From Thermoguttaceae bacterium (lineage in GTDB: Bacteria > Planctomycetota > Planctomycetia > Pirellulales > Thermoguttaceae): a DNA stretch of 64,000 bases. The stretch lies in the NCBI GenBank assembly GCA_017937485.1, contig JAGBDN010000017.1:62001-126000 (forward strand), written 5' to 3'. Under the pieces are notes generated by a model. The model searched no databases. It saw nothing but the letters and a program-made list of their open reading frames with translations, and was not told the DNA's origin. Positions 48,122 to 54,345 of this stretch are shown one piece after another. A program made the translations under genes and the position numbers. How positions within the stretch are numbered: position 1 is the stretch's first letter; each line of letters begins with the position of its first letter.

Positions 48122-50497
48122 ATGCCCCGCTTTTCCTTTCAACCGCTCGGCGACAGTTGGACGCTCGTCGCCGTTTTGCTCGCCGCGCTCGTCGTCGGAC
48201 TCGTCGTTTTCCGTCCGAACGACGCGACGCTTTCGCGCTTTCGCCGCCGCGTCGCGCTCGGGCTCCGTTTGGCGCTCGTCGCGATTTTCGCCGTTCTTTT
48301 CGCGCGACCGTCCGTCGTAAGCGTTGAGAAAGAAGAACTTCCGGCGTCGTTCGTTTTCCTTTGCGACCTTTCGGAGAGTATGTCGATTCGCGACGAAGCC
48401 GACGGAGCGAGCCGTTTCGACGCGATGAAAGCCGGGTTCGCGTCCGTTCAAGACCGACTCCGCGCCCTTTCGGAGCGTTTCGACGTCCGCGTTTTCGGCT
48501 TTGGCGACGCGACCGAGGAACTCGAACTCGTCGACGGCGCCGTCCGTTTTCCCGACGCGCCGACCGGTTCCGAAACGCCGCTCGGAGACGCGCTCGCCGA
48601 AACGCTCCGAACGACCGCCGGGAGCCGAACGCTCGGCGTCGCCGTTATTTCGGACGGAACGCAGCGAACGAAAGACGCCGAATCGCCGTCGCCGCAAGAC
48701 GTCGCGCTCCGTTGGCGGGACGCGGAACGCCCGATTTTCGCCGTTCCGCTCGGCTCCGCGGAGGGTTCCCCGACGACGCGCGACGTCGCCGTCCTCGACC
48801 TGCGCTCGAACGACCGCGTTTTTCTCGGGAACGAGCTGACCGTCTCCGGCCAAGTTCGCGTTCTTGGGCTCGCCGGGCAAAAAATCCCGCTCGCGCTTTC
48901 GCTCGAGACGTCGCCGGGCAAGCTGGAAGTCGTCGACGAAACGGAACTTGCGCCGACTTCGAACGACGCGACGCTCTCTTATCGCTTCGTTTGCGCCCCG
49001 AAAACCGCCGGGCAATGGAAGCTGCGCGTCGCCGCGCCGCCGCAAGAAGGCGAACTCGCCGACTCGAACAACGAACTCGGCGCGTTCGTCGCCGCGATCG
49101 ACGGCGGACTCGACGTCTTATACATCGAAGGCACAAGGCGTTACGAGCAAAACTTCCTCCGCGCCGCGCTCGACGAAGCGTCCGACGTCCGCGTCCGATA
49201 TTGGCGTCCGTCGACCGCCTCGTTGGTCGCTCGACTCCCCGACGCGACCGAAGCGGAGCGGGTCGCCGCCTTGACGCGTTCGCGCAAATCGTTGATCGAA
49301 ACGTTCTTCAAACCGGGCAAATACGCCGCTTACGTCTTGGGCGACGTCGACGCGGCGGTGTTTCAGCCGAACGAGTTGAAGGCCCTCGCCGACCTCGTCG
49401 AGAGCGGAACCGGGCTCGTCGTTCTCGCGGGCGAACGCTCGCTTGGCGCGGGCGGGTACGCCGAAACGCCGCTGGCCGACGTTTTCCCGGTCGCGACGCG
49501 AAGCGCCGACCGTTTGCCGCTCGACTCCGACCTCGCCGACTTTGACGCCGCGTCGCCGGAATCGCAGAAACTCCGCTTCGACGGGGAGTTCCGCGCCGCG
49601 CCCGCCGTTCGCTCCGGGCGACCGGACTTTGTCGCGCAGTTGAATCTCGACCCGAAAAAGAACGCCGAAAGTTGGGCGAAGCTCCCGCCGCTGTCGAGCG
49701 TTTACCGCGTCGGAACGCCGAAACCGGGCGCGACGACCGCTTTGACCGCGACCGGCGCGCTCTCCGACGGCGCGACTTCTAAAGAGTTGCCGCTTCTTGT
49801 GTTGAACCGCTTCGGCGACGGTCGCGTCGCGACGCTCGCGACCGACTCGACTTGGCGCTGGCGGATGCGCGGTTTCGAAGACGAACACCGCAAGTTTTGG
49901 CGACAGTTGCTTTTATGGACGGCGAAATTGGACGAGCTTCTCGAAGGCGAACTCGCGGTCGAACTCGAACGCAGCCGGTTCGCGCCGGGCGAAAACGTCG
50001 ATTTCCGCGTCGTTTACCGTCCGAAAGAGGGGGAAGATTTGTCGAAATTGAAGGCGAAGGCGACCGTCGTCGGGCCGGACGGTTCGCGAACCGACGTCGC
50101 GCTGACCGACGCAAACGGCGTTTGGACGGGAACTTATCGCGGCGGCGAAACGCTCGGCGTCGGCGATTACCGCGTCGAAGCGTCGGTTCTTTCGTCGACC
50201 GGAACGCCGCTCCAAAGCGCGCAAGCTCGGTTTTTGACGTTCGCGCAAAACTTGGAACTCGACGAACCGGCCGCGTCGCCGTCGACGCTCGAAAACCTCG
50301 CGTCGACGACCGAAGGGAAAACGTTGCGCGTCGACGACTTAGCGTCGTTTCTCGACGAGTTGGCGCAAAAACGGGCGACGGTCGCCGACTTCCGCGAAGT
50401 CAAGCGGTCGCTTTACGATACTTGGGCGATTTTCGCGCTCTTCGCCGGACTCCTGATCGCCGACTGGGCCCTGCGCAAACGTTGGGGCGCCGCGTAA
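48122..50497 (+). CDS. Membrane protein with VWA and glutamine-amidotransferase-like domains
   Basis: 791 residues. One or two N-terminal helices (LVAVLLAALVVGLVVFRP, LRLALVAIFAVLFARP), then a von Willebrand A domain with the start of a MIDAS motif (FVFLCDLSESMSI, DxSxS form) at about residue 80. An Ig-like stretch (FLGNELTVSGQVRVLGLAG) precedes a class-I-amidotransferase-like fold with VLYIEGTRRYEQNFLRAAL and TGLVVLAGERSLGAGGYAE. Another beta domain and a C-terminal helix (LYDTWAIFALFAGLLIADWA) complete it. In planctomycetes such proteins usually accompany MoxR ATPase, DUF58 and BatA-like genes; none is adjacent here. The amidotransferase part lacks a visible catalytic Cys, so a binding role is more likely. 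Confidence 0.82.
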   Translation: MPRFSFQPLGDSWTLVAVLLAALVVGLVVFRPNDATLSRFRRRVALGLRLALVAIFAVLFARPSVVSVEKEELPASFVFLCDLSESMSIRDEADGASRFDAMKAGFASVQDRLRALSERFDVRVFGFGDATEELELVDGAVRFPDAPTGSETPLGDALAETLRTTAGSRTLGVAVISDGTQRTKDAESPSPQDVALRWRDAERPIFAVPLGSAEGSPTTRDVAVLDLRSNDRVFLGNELTVSGQVRVLGLAGQKIPLALSLETSPGKLEVVDETELAPTSNDATLSYRFVCAPKTAGQWKLRVAAPPQEGELADSNNELGAFVAAIDGGLDVLYIEGTRRYEQNFLRAALDEASDVRVRYWRPSTASLVARLPDATEAERVAALTRSRKSLIETFFKPGKYAAYVLGDVDAAVFQPNELKALADLVESGTGLVVLAGERSLGAGGYAETPLADVFPVATRSADRLPLDSDLADFDAASPESQKLRFDGEFRAAPAVRSGRPDFVAQLNLDPKKNAESWAKLPPLSSVYRVGTPKPGATTALTATGALSDGATSKELPLLVLNRFGDGRVATLATDSTWRWRMRGFEDEHRKFWRQLLLWTAKLDELLEGELAVELERSRFAPGENVDFRVVYRPKEGEDLSKLKAKATVVGPDGSRTDVALTDANGVWTGTYRGGETLGVGDYRVEASVLSSTGTPLQSAQARFLTFAQNLELDEPAASPSTLENLASTTEGKTLRVDDLASFLDELAQKRATVADFREVKRSLYDTWAIFALFAGLLIADWALRKRWGAA

Positions 50498-50647: not shown

Positions 50648-51085
50648 TCATTCGGACGGAATATCGAGTTCGTAAACGAACGGGCCTTTGCCGCTAAAGG
50701 TCGTTTTTTCTTGCGTTTCGGAACCGTATCGCGCCGGAACGGCCTCTTCGAAAACCGGTTCGGGGCCCATCGGGCCGTCGACGGTTTCGCCCGTGTCGAC
50801 GCGCGCCGACACGGCGACCAAATACGAGCCTTCCGCCAACCCTTTCGTTTCGGAAATCTTGAATTTTCCGTCGGTAATCGCCGCGCCGGAACTCGTTTGA
50901 AGGGCGTTCGACGAATCGGGCGTAAACTCGATCGAACCTTGAGCGATCGGCGTTCCGTCGATCGAAATCGTTCCTTCGACCGCTCGACGGCCCTGCGGAT
51001 TCTTGGAACCGCAACCGGCGGTCGCGCCGACGACGCAAACCAAGAGCGTCGCCAGCGCCGCCCAAGTCAAAACGTTACGTTTCAT
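50648..51085 (-). CDS. Lipoprotein partner of the DUF1559 protein (module 2)
   Basis: 145 residues. A lipoprotein signal ends in the lipobox ATAGC, so the cysteine near residue 25 should be lipidated. The mature part reads like a small beta-sandwich of the carboxypeptidase-regulatory/transthyretin type: VEGTISIDGTPIAQGSIEFT, FKISETKGLAEGSYLVAVSA. Planctomycete DUF1559 genes are commonly followed by such a lipoprotein. Here it lies 30 bp after the DUF1559 stop and should share its transcript. The function is not established; an envelope-anchored binding or assembly partner is a reasonable guess. Confidence 0.8.
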   Translation of the reverse strand: MKRNVLTWAALATLLVCVVGATAGCGSKNPQGRRAVEGTISIDGTPIAQGSIEFTPDSSNALQTSSGAAITDGKFKISETKGLAEGSYLVAVSARVDTGETVDGPMGPEPVFEEAVPARYGSETQEKTTFSGKGPFVYELDIPSE

Positions 51086-51115
51086 CGTTGTTCTTATCCT
51101 TTCGTTCGCAAGCGC

Positions 51116-52144
51116 TTAAAGTTGAACGTTCGTTTCGCCGCCCTTCGAAGTCGAAAGCGCTTGCCAGGTTTCGCGGTTCACCGTGTCGGAAACGAAGCGA
51201 ACCGAACCGTCGACCATCGAGACGTTGACGCCGCCCGAGTGGTTGCTACGCGCGCTCAAAAAGACCGCTTTCGACGTGCTGCCGCTCGTCGGAACCGTCT
51301 TGTACCCGTCCAACGGGAAACGTTCCGGGTCGTGCGACGTTTGTTTAAAGGAGTCGTGGAAGTAGTCGGGGTTCGACGGGTTCGGCGTGTAGTACGCGCT
51401 GTAAATCGTCGACATACCGTACCAAATCAAACCGCGCAGGTCGTTTGTGCCGGAACCGGTCCAAGAACCTTGAATCGTTTCGGAAAACGCCATCGTGTTC
51501 GAAGTTCCGTCGGTAATCGCCGACAACGCGACCGGAGCGTCGAAACGTTTGTCGTCGCCGCGAATGTTAAACGCCGCGCCGCGGTTAACGACGCCGTTGT
51601 ATTCCGTAACCCAACCGATCGCGCCGTTCGTGTTGTAGTCGCATTGATAAATCCCGGTCGAACCGACGCAAGCGACGTAATTATGGTGTTCGAAGCCGTT
51701 AAAAGAGCTTTTTCGCGGCTCGTCGGACGGGCAAGTGTACGCGTTGAACCGTTTTCCGGCCAGCAATGTGTTGTTGTCGCCGGAATTGAAGGGATAATTG
51801 GCGCCCCAAGTGTATTCGCTCGCGTAAGCCGCTTCTTCGATATACGGGAAAAGCGCGATCGCCCACGTTCCGTGTTGCGCGTCGATCCCGCCCGGCGGCA
51901 GGTACGTTCCGTCCGCGTCGACGTAGTTGTGAATCGCCAACCCGAGTTGTTTCAGATTGTTCGTGCATTGCATGCGACGCGCCGCTTCGCGCGCCGCTTG
52001 AACGGCCGGAAGAAGAAGGCCGATCAAAATTCCGATGATCGCGATGACGACTAAGAGTTCGACAAGGGTGAAACCGAAGCGGCAAACTTTGCCCCCCCCC
52101 CCCAGTTTAACATCTTTTTCGAAAGCATTCCAAAACTCCTTCAT
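51116..52144 (-). CDS. DUF1559 pseudopilin-like protein, copy 2, with poly-G tract (possibly out of phase)
   Basis: As written, 342 residues from the ATG at 52144. The prepilin-like segment [20 protein letters not shown], the DUF1559 hallmark [20 protein letters not shown] and the C-terminal [19 protein letters not shown] signature are intact. The first residues are suspect. No ribosome binding site precedes 52144; instead AAGGAG at 52141-52136 lies inside the first codons and points to an ATG at 52128 in another frame. With the 12-G tract as given, that frame stops after 25 codons; with 13 or 10 G it would read [20 protein letters not shown] into the gene. The gene may therefore be shown in an OFF phase. 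DUF1559 proteins are thought to be surface or pilus-like, but their role is unproven. Confidence 0.85.
52092..52103 (-). repeat. 12-G homopolymer tract in DUF1559 copy 2
   Basis: C12 on the plus strand, G12 on the coding strand, located between the initiation region and the prepilin-like helix. Gly codons elsewhere in the window are mostly GGC or GGA, so the run of GGG is not explained by codon bias. Confidence 0.95.
52136..52141 (-). promoter_or_regulatory. Ribosome binding site pointing to an out-of-frame start (52128)
   Basis: AAGGAG on the minus strand, 7 bases before the ATG at 52128-52126. It is the best match in this leader and matches sites used by neighbours (AAGGA before 54248, AAGGAG before 57994 and 56213). 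It lies downstream of the ATG at 52144, so it cannot serve that start. Confidence 0.75.
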
Positions 52145-52240
52145 AAATTGAATAAAAGAAAGCCTTTTCGCCGTTTCGTCGCGTCGAAAAAGCCGGGAAA
52201 AAATAAGGAAAACGGACGAACCGTTTCCGTCGACGCCTTC

Positions 52241-52269
52241 AATATACCCGCCGAGCGCTAAAAAAGCAA
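52241..52269 (-). promoter_or_regulatory. Predicted promoter of DUF1559 module 2
   Basis: On the minus strand, TTGCTT at 52269-52264 and TATATT at 52246-52241, spacer 17 bp. It lies about 100 bases upstream of the gene in an AT-rich 330-bp gap that otherwise holds only the terminator of module 1. Confidence 0.55.
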
Positions 52270-52378
52270 GAAAAATCTCCCGCTTTCGTCAACTTTTTTC
52301 AAAATTTACGCTAAAAATATTGCCGCGGCGACAAAGTTTAGCAAATCTTCCCAAACCGCCCATCTTTCGGCGCGACGT

Positions 52379-52424
52379 AAAAAAAACGCCCGGAACCGCT
52401 TGCTAGAACGATTTCGGGCGTTTT
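52379..52424 (-). terminator. Terminator after lipoprotein of module 1
   Basis: AAAACGCCCG at 52383-52392 pairs with CGGGCGTTTT at 52415-52424. On the minus strand the hairpin ends in a long T tract (A8 at 52379-52386 on plus). Confidence 0.8.
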
Positions 52425-52475
52425 CGATTTTTTCAACGACGCCGCAAGCGCCGTCAAAAGAAGGCGTTAGCGCGA

Positions 52476-53003
52476 TTAAAGAACGCCGCCGCCGTTGTCC
52501 GCCTTGTCGCGAACCGCTTCGCCGACGTTGACCTCCAAGTTATTCGTCCCTTCGACGACTTCGACTTCAAGCGGCGTCGTGCCGACCAAGCGATACTCCT
52601 CGGCGACGACGAAGAACTCTTCGTAAGTCGCGCCGCTGTCGACGTATTCTTGGTAAATCCGCGCCGATTCGGCGTCGATCGGGCTCGGCGGAGGAGGCGT
52701 GCCTTCGCCGACCGTTTTCGCGACCGAGACCTTAAATTTACCCGCCGGGGCGCCCTTATATTGACCGTGCGTAACGATCGTCGCGACGCCTTTCGCGTCG
52801 GTCGTGCCGCCGCTCGTCCACTTGATCGATTCGTCGACCGGTTTCATAGAAACCGCCGCGCCCTCAAGCGGTTTGCCGTCTTGAATCACCGTAATCGTCG
52901 TCGGATTCAGTTTCGGCATACCGTCCGGAAGTTTCGGCCCGCAACCGACCGTCGACGCGAGCGCCGCCAAAACGAGCGCGCTCCCGAGAAAAATTCGTTT
53001 CAT
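52476..53003 (-). CDS. Lipoprotein partner of the DUF1559 protein (module 1)
   Basis: 175 residues from the ATG at 53003; the frame extends upstream, but the lipoprotein signal starts here (MKRIFLGSALVLAALASTVG, then Cys). AAAGGCGGAAATA precedes the ATG. The mature region is a beta-rich domain: NPTTITVIQDGKPLEGAAVS, GTTDAKGVATIVTHG and PAGKFKVSVAKTVGEG, resembling carboxypeptidase-regulatory folds, followed by a helical insert and GTTPLEVEVVEGTNNLEVNV. It resembles the module 2 lipoprotein in plan but is longer and diverged. It lies 126 bp after the first DUF1559 gene. Confidence 0.8.
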   Translation of the reverse strand: MKRIFLGSALVLAALASTVGCGPKLPDGMPKLNPTTITVIQDGKPLEGAAVSMKPVDESIKWTSGGTTDAKGVATIVTHGQYKGAPAGKFKVSVAKTVGEGTPPPPSPIDAESARIYQEYVDSGATYEEFFVVAEEYRLVGTTPLEVEVVEGTNNLEVNVGEAVRDKADNGGGVL

Positions 53004-53129
53004 TATTTCCGCCTTTCTCGACGACGCGCAAACGCCGCCGTTGTTCGACTTAAAATCAGTCGCGGAACGCCGACGCAACCGTCGACGCTCCGCGTCAAAA
53101 GAACGTTAAATTTTCGCTAAACGCTAAAA

Positions 53130-54248
53130 TCACATCGTTTCGGTTTCGCCGCCGGACGGGGTGCCCATCGCGCCCCAAACGCCGTAGGGGCTCTTGCCGG
53201 TGCATTGCGTCGAGGTCGCGCTCAGGTTGCCGCAGTCGATCGTTTCGCTGACGAAGCGGACGGAACCGTCGGTCATCGCGCAGTTGACGCCGCCGGAGTG
53301 ATAGCTGTTCGGCGGATAAATCGCGCCCCATTGACCGTTGGACGAAGCGAGACAGCTCGGCGCGTTCGGCGGAAGAACGGTGTGGAAACCGTTCCAGCCG
53401 CGCCCGTCTTGGAAGAAGTTGCCGCGCCAGGTGTCGCAGGTGGCAACCAGTTGCGTCGGGTCGTCGGCTTTGCGGGCGTTGTTCATACAGACGTCCGGGT
53501 GGCAGTCGAGGTCGCCGGTGTAGAAGGAGGAAACGGTGGCGGAACCGCCCTTAACCGCGCTCGACCAATAGCCTTCCGGCGCGCTGGCCGATTCGCTGAC
53601 CGCGACGGTGTTCGACGTGCCGTCGGTGCAGGCGGCGTAAGTCTTCCAGTGTTCTTGGTGGAAGAGACCGCGCGTATGGCATTTTTTCGTCGAAACGTTG
53701 ATATAGTTCGGGTGGTTGTACGGCGCGTCGAGTTTGCTTGTGCCGTCGCCGAGGGAGTACATCACGTTGACGCGAGCGTTGCCGGCGTGAACGGACGGTT
53801 GCATACCGTTCGGTTCCGACGGACAAATGATCGTCGTGATCGGGTTTTTGTAGACGTCCGATTCAAAGAAACCGCCGGCCCAGAGCCCGATTTCGCCTTT
53901 GTGCGTTTTTTTGTCGAGATCCATAATACGGTCGTAGCGCGGCGCCTCTTCCATAAACGGAAGCAACGGAATCGTAACGCTAAGCGGCGCGTAGTTGTCC
54001 CAACCGAACGCCGAGAACGGCGACATCGTCGGGAGCGCGTTGTATGCGTCGTGATAGTTTTGGAGCGCCAAACCGACTTGTTTCAAGTGGTTCGTGCATT
54101 GCATACGGCGCGCCGCTTCGCGAGCCGCTTGAACCGCCGGGAGAAGAAGCCCGATCAAAATACCGATGATCGCGATAACGACCAACAATTCGACGAGAGT
54201 GAAGCCGTTAGGTTTGCCCCCCCCCCCCATTTTACCAAATTTCGACAT
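53130..54248 (-). CDS. DUF1559 pseudopilin-like protein, copy 1, with in-frame poly-G tract
   Basis: 372 residues. ATG at 54248 behind AAGGA with an 8-base spacer. It reads [20 protein letters not shown], then [20 protein letters not shown] and [20 protein letters not shown], the type-IV-pilin-like N-methylation helix and DUF1559 start. The C-terminal signature [20 protein letters not shown] is present, with several cysteines in between. The 12-G tract immediately follows the second Met and is in frame, so this copy is ON as written; one base more or fewer would break it. A perfect-consensus promoter lies about 100 bp upstream. Expected location is the inner membrane then cell surface or pilus-like structure (family inference). 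Confidence 0.92.
54217..54228 (-). repeat. 12-G homopolymer tract in DUF1559 copy 1
   Basis: C12 on plus, G12 on the coding strand, encoding GGGG directly before [11 protein letters not shown]. Same length and same relative position as the tract at 52092-52103. Confidence 0.95.
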
Positions 54249-54345
54249 TACGTTGTTCCTTTAATCTTAAAATAGTATTAAATCGCGCCGAAAAACTACT
54301 TTTCGACGATTTTTTGCCTCAACAGCGCTACAACGCGCCGTTTTT

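Follow-up and report, generated by a model that had tools for sequence, protein, structure and literature searches.

Homopolymeric G tracts in the predicted leaders of DUF1559 pseudopilin genes of a gut planctomycete: a likely system of slipped-strand phase variation

RESULTS

Two DUF1559 pseudopilin genes with a G12 tract in the leader

The window analysed here is a stretch of 64,000 nucleotides of contig JAGBDN010000017.1 (assembly GCA_017937485.1) of a Thermoguttaceae bacterium that is related to ruminant-gut species. It carries two genes for pseudopilins of the DUF1559 family, and each has an uninterrupted tract of 12 G within the region that encodes its prepilin leader; the likely function of these tracts as on/off switches is the subject of this report. 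The family assignment is clear, with PF07596 scores of 149.5 and 165.7 bits against a curated cut-off of 23.3 and the full model covered. Both proteins have the prepilin N-methylation motif (PF07963, TIGR02532), a short leader with a terminal G ahead of FTLVE, and a hydrophobic helix. The features are as follows (positions in the window).

51116..52144, minus strand: DUF1559 pseudopilin gene 1, 342 amino acids from the called ATG at 52144; PF07596 (E = 2.5e-43), PF07963, prepilin and H-X9-DG models
53130..54248, minus strand: DUF1559 pseudopilin gene 2, 372 amino acids; PF07596 (E = 2.9e-48), PF07963
52092..52103, minus strand: G12 tract in the leader of gene 1, reading C12 on the plus strand
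54217..54228, minus strand: G12 tract in the leader of gene 2, reading C12 on the plus strand
52104..52111, minus strand: GTTAAACT flank directly 5' of the gene 1 tract, common to most tract leaders of the genus (6 to 8 of 8 bases in 42 of 46)
52126..52128, minus strand: second possible ATG of gene 1, with AAGGAG before it at 52136-52141; in frame with a G13 tract but not with G12
52142..52144, minus strand: ATG from which gene 1 was called; it is in frame at G12, and no Shine-Dalgarno site was found for it
52070..52072, minus strand: Phe codon at which, by analogy to gene 2, the mature protein of gene 1 is predicted to begin (G|FTLVE)
54204..54248, minus strand: the 15 codons predicted to form the prepilin leader of gene 2; the ATG is preceded by AGGA (54257-54260)

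A preliminary description of this DNA had reported G12 on the coding strand of both genes, encoding GGGGK ahead of GFTLVELL, and both tracts were confirmed. It had put every other G or C run of the window at no more than about 8, and all of them are in fact 7 or shorter. Its argument from codon usage, that Gly is normally encoded here by GGC or GGA, stood in part: GGC is dominant and GGG four times running is unlikely, but GGA is not a usual Gly codon. A count of 1,770 Gly codons, taken from those DUF1559 bodies of the source genome that were fetched, gave 1,087 GGC, 189 (10.7%) GGG and 152 GGA. At this usage, the chance of four consecutive GGG codons is about 1e-4. No tandem repeats besides the G tracts were found between positions 50000 and 55000.

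In the source genome, which comprises 116 contigs and 4.37 Mb, PF07596 has 62 matches, fragments included, and the loci fetched from this genome contain 50 distinct genes with the FTLVE helix. The genome's G runs of at least 8, merged by hand from 68 listed places, number 32: 19 G8, five G9, one G10, no G11, six G12 and one G13. Because the counts drop to zero at G11 and rise again at G12, the G12 and G13 tracts stand apart from the normal run-length distribution rather than forming its tail. All seven runs of at least 11 G lie in leaders of DUF1559 pseudopilin genes, and all 28 Gly codons of these seven tracts are GGG, which has a chance of 6e-28 if the codons are independent. The sole G10 run is on contig C101, 14 bases from the contig end and away from pilins.

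The tract length sets the reading frame

In both window genes, the frame depends on the length of a long pure tract. At G12, gene 2 can be read in frame from 54248, with AGGA 8 bases before the start, and from 54230; at G11 or G13, it is in frame from no ATG. For gene 1, the only ATG in frame at G12 is the one at 52144; at G13, the ATG at 52128 would be in frame, and at G11, none is. Because the start at 52144 lacks a Shine-Dalgarno site, gene 1 is maybe off, or weakly on, as assembled. Its database homologues (P0121-P0124) are annotated from the 52144-type start, and therefore, gene 1 may switch among three levels: strong, weak and off.

Frame states were then called for 109 distinct pilin genes in the fetched loci, from whichever ATG had the best Shine-Dalgarno site; a gene that reads from it into FTLVE was scored as on. 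With a G or C run of at least 10 (42 genes), 23 were on, 17 off and two without a Shine-Dalgarno start; with a run of 7 to 9 (10 genes), the numbers were five, two and three; and with a run of 6 or less (57 genes), they were 44, three and 10. The share of off genes was 17 of 40 for the long runs versus 3 of 47 for the short ones (Fisher P = 7.8e-5). Within the source genome, genes without a run of 10 were on in 35 of 35 classifiable cases, compared to five on and two off among the tract genes (P = 0.024), the latter two being window gene 1 and the gene on contig C75. Interrupted G-rich stretches are present in all three off genes of the short-run class (L246, L256, L264). Out-of-frame products had 10 to 36 amino acids in 18 of 19 genes and 113 in one (with the gene on contig C57 of the source genome left out).

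Tracts at the same position in the genus and beyond

Forty relatives were searched for runs, and 20 genomes, the source genome (G000) included, belong to the genus. Runs of at least 10 G were listed and fetched from the 13 other genus genomes that have any, giving 88 distinct runs over 14 genomes. The preliminary description had pointed to G tracts at the same position in relatives' DUF1559 genes as a check, and they recur: 46 of the 88 runs, in 11 of the 20 genomes, are at the DUF1559 leader position, 45 of them directly before FTLVE and one (G011, contig C120) before a variant helix. By genome, there are 7 in G000, 10 in G009 (which has 13 runs of at least 10 G in all), 12 in G011, 7 in G016, 3 in G019, 2 in G007 and one each in G005, G006, G010, G014 and G018. 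The lengths are narrowly distributed, with two G10, 15 G11, 25 G12 and four G13. Outside pilin leaders lie 40 of the 88 runs. DUF1559 genes as such are present in 20 of 20 genus genomes, with 23 to 68 matches each.

The named relatives are metagenome-assembled genomes that belong to Thermoguttaceae or to other planctomycetes; their sources include water buffalo gut and the rectum of goat and water deer. In 4 of their 11 loci, which come from several projects, the leader has G10 to G13. One of these four, L267 of planctomycete Th196P3bin88 (an isolate name that can be read as pointing to a termite gut), has G13 at the same leader position with 50% identity in the body, and therefore, the leader tract is not confined to the genus. 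A GGGG leader was present in 15 of 175 database homologues checked (120 of the 677 listed for gene 2, and 55 for gene 1), and PPP in one. In other genera of the family, pilins had none of the examined runs, whether direct or inverted (every listed run of G020, G021, G022 and G024, and part of those of G023). For the 15 order-level genomes, 13 runs were examined, covering the first listed place in 12 of them, and none was at a pilin.

Poly-G is a known product of sequencer failure, and tract lengths in draft genomes are unreliable, so that the tracts might be sequencing or assembly artefacts. The long poly-G at the contig ends of G023 (L315-L323) does resemble such junk. The window tracts, in contrast, sit amid clean coding sequence, and tracts of this kind occur at one position of one gene family in 11 genomes and are shared by named relatives from several projects and by the GGGG-bearing homologues. 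The exact length of a tract could still be one off, but as an account of the tracts themselves, an artefact is extremely improbable.

Near-identical loci with different tract lengths

Loci were also compared across genomes that carry different species handles, and on/off length polymorphism was found among close relatives. G009:C166 (genome:contig) has G12 and is off, whereas G019:C557 has G13 and is on, and 60 of 60 bases are the same on each side of the tract; this pair represents either two species or one organism binned twice. G016:C178 (G11, off) and G019:C491 (G12, on) match in 59 of 60 and 56 of 60 flanking bases. Window gene 1 (G12) differs from G009:C447 (G11), with flanks matching in 59 and 59 of 60. 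Tract length thus differs between near-identical loci of opposite frame state, which supports slipped-strand phase variation as the preliminary description had proposed it.

These pairs bear on two other explanations. A poly-G leader might simply be ancestral and have been copied with the paralogs, without any switching, and the out-of-frame copies would then be decaying genes. Such a history fits the flank that tract leaders have in common, the existence of interrupted or shortened tracts (L091 with G6CG6, L254, L256, L264) and an off state common to G000:C75 and G009:C61. It does not fit the length differences between near-identical loci, the purity of the tracts in genes in which GGC is the common codon, or the bodies of off genes, which are intact long frames (for example, 336 codons after the L026 leader); we regard inheritance without switching as unlikely. 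The intact bodies of off genes would also be expected from programmed slippage of RNA polymerase or the ribosome, by which some full-length protein would be made at every tract length and the tract would tune the level. By itself, programmed slippage leaves the one thing that the pairs display, different lengths at near-identical loci, unexplained, and we regard it as very unlikely.

The leader is predicted to be removed from the protein

Gene 2 matched 20 solved pilin sequences, and 14 of these aligned with mature residue 1 at query residue 16, the Phe of GFTLVE, although the matches are mostly weak (E < 0.001 for the first five only). Because solved mature pilins begin just after the leader, the glycines are predicted to be cut off, and the 15-residue leader with its GGGG would be absent from the mature protein. 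The source genome has one match to a prepilin peptidase (PF01478) and six to T2SSE ATPases. The predicted structure has a predicted local distance difference test score of 80 and a long N-terminal helix (18-69), and a structure search with the DUF1559 body for function gave weak pilin matches only, among the families that the search covered. The prepilin signal suggests a location of the DUF1559 proteins at the cell surface.

Flank, leader turnover and displaced tracts

GTTAAA(A/C)T or a close form lies 5' of the tract in 42 of 46 pilin leaders (at least 6 of 8 bases), plus both of the leaders with an inverted tract. These two, both in G016 (L149 on C106 and L199 on C207), have C12 in place of G12, coding APPPHFNKG. 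A decayed inverted tract, C8 with poly-proline coding, was seen in a DUF1559 leader of G011 (L244, C184). Outside pilins, 5 of 40 long G runs had a flank score of 7 to 8 of 8, versus 3 of 1,039 runs of 4 to 6 G in the same loci; the five are L151 and L132, both upstream of DUF1559 genes, L160, L177 and the unassigned L080.

Leaders also turn over. Bodies that are 85 to 99% alike differ in having or lacking a tract, and L145 (G13) and L153 (G12) are 96 to 98% identical to the tract-less L086 (G000:C106) on either side of a promoter-leader block that does not align and ends 8 bases before FTLVE. Conversely, similar leaders are found on unrelated bodies (the leaders of L015 and L176, for example, share 77% of 91 bases, and a crude ratio puts the similarity of their bodies at about 0.35). 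Exchange among paralogs is a probable cause of this turnover.

A DNA signal for recombination is known from the gonococcus, where a guanine-quadruplex site lies upstream of pilE, and the tract might likewise be a signal by which DUF1559 paralogs exchange 5' modules or bodies. The replaced 5' block of L145 and L153, the two inverted tracts of G016 and the excess of the flank at long non-pilin G runs are all compatible with such a function. But it predicts neither frame states nor one-base length differences, and many tract-less DUF1559 leaders differ in the 5' block, too. A recombination signal in place of a switch is improbable; a recombination role may exist beside phase variation. The flank was also considered as a mark of a mobile element, a reading that was set aside. 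Its motif gave 82 matches with at most two mismatches in 20 genomes against 15 when reversed, and many weaker ones lay in unrelated genes.

G tracts with this flank were seen elsewhere. In L160 (G009:C522), a G10 at 1499-1508 with the GTTAAACT flank lies in an MmeI-type gene, between the methyltransferase and target recognition domains, which makes this restriction-modification gene a candidate phase-variable methyltransferase. L177 (G011:C88) and L203 (G016:C255, flank score 6) have G11 near the N-terminus of proteins with an FGE-sulfatase domain. Upstream of DUF1559 genes, same-flank tracts of 12 (L151, G009:C99), 8 (L257, G000:C93) and 14 (L132, G011:C43) G possibly are a transcriptional form of the switch. 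Six tracts (L070, L105, L180, L191, L263, L267) are about 80 bases or less from a contig end, as if assembly often breaks there, perhaps because of mixed lengths or repeats.

Genes next to the window pseudopilins

52476..53006, minus strand: small predicted lipoprotein gene between both pseudopilin genes; lipobox STVGC by eye, sub-threshold PF10670 match only
50648..51085, minus strand: small predicted lipoprotein gene 3' of pseudopilin gene 1; lipobox ATAGC by eye, no Pfam/NCBIfam match

Each window pseudopilin gene is thus followed by a small predicted lipoprotein gene (50648-54248), and the downstream gene might share the effect of an off state.

DISCUSSION

In the genome studied here, seven DUF1559 genes carry a pure tract of G12 or G13 in the part that encodes the predicted cleaved leader, and replication slippage likely switches each of them on and off; we put the probability of this reading at roughly 0.8. 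In our model, slipped-strand mispairing during replication would alter the tract length in a growing population. Gain or loss of one or two G would lead to an early end of translation, and gain or loss of three would leave the mature protein unchanged because the glycines leave with the leader. With tracts that slip independently, seven in this genome and up to twelve in one relative, many on/off combinations could arise, and switching would be expected within one population.

Several observations weigh against frequent switching or limit what the counts can carry. G000:C75 and G009:C61 are both G12 and both off, and G009:C496 and G011:C65a are both G11 and off with identical flanks; such shared off states would fit a fixed loss as well. 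The frame call depends on a simple Shine-Dalgarno rule. A looser spacing rule gives 23 on, 20 off and three undecided among the 46 tract genes and miscalls G000:C57 (start spacing of 3) as off, which is on under the stricter rule, and some genes have an in-frame second ATG adjoining the tract. Nine of the 20 genus genomes have no pilin tract of at least G10. The genomes are kin, and hence, the 46 tract genes are not independent. Finally, a homopolymer consensus may err by one base.

The flank, the inverted tracts and the leader turnover allow for a wider, tentative model, for which we see clearly less than even odds. A portable cassette of the form GTTAAA(A/C)T-G10-13-(C/T)AA might reside in either orientation in the leaders of up to a dozen pseudopilins, each tract slipping independently and entire promoter-leader blocks, cassette-bearing or not, being exchanged among the paralogs. 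Gut planctomycetes might in this way vary their surface combinatorially by means of their largest gene family; the cassette would also occur in a few other genes, such as the MmeI-type gene.

If slippage switches these genes, phase variation would be extended to a phylum from which we found no report of it. For Planctomycetota or DUF1559, our search of the open literature returned no account of phase variation; subscription papers were mostly outside its reach. The family is large, with 74 genes in Rhodopirellula baltica (PMC2754498) and 68 paralogs in Planctopirus limnophila, where it is the largest paralog group and of unknown function (PMC10632474), and the portions of these two papers that were available contain nothing on tracts. 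Random on/off switching of pilin-like genes would let cells vary their surface, and random switching of DUF1559 genes would suggest that their products are surface-exposed and that phages, grazers or a host select on them. The question of DUF1559 function would then be testable with existing metagenome reads. The design is peculiar in that the unstable tract is placed in a part of the protein that is discarded.

Slipped-strand contingency loci are known from Campylobacter, Helicobacter and Haemophilus, and the DUF1559 tracts resemble them in that a long pure mononucleotide tract lies near the 5' end of the gene and out-of-frame products are short. In Neisseria-type antigenic variation of pilin by gene conversion, silent donor copies supply one expression locus; here, a replacement of the 5' block was seen at one locus. 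According to the accessible part of PMC5953494, Neisseria has polyC tracts in pilC and simple sequence repeats in 23 of 607 pilS alleles, and the similarity consists in a homopolymeric G/C tract within the frame of a pilus-related gene, with a predicted on/off switch. But PilC is a protein of the pilus tip, and the same source gives two copies of it per genome, whereas the DUF1559 tract lies in the pilin-like protein's own leader, which is predicted to be cleaved off, and it occurs in many paralogs and in another phylum and family. A survey of 5' homopolymeric tracts as a general means of gene inactivation, as far as its available text goes, links them to early truncation and found poly(A) and poly(T) over-represented (PMC2831843); our tracts share the 5' position and the early truncation but are poly-G and belong to one family. 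The mechanism is known; what appears to be new is its deployment in a large family of pseudopilins in gut planctomycetes.

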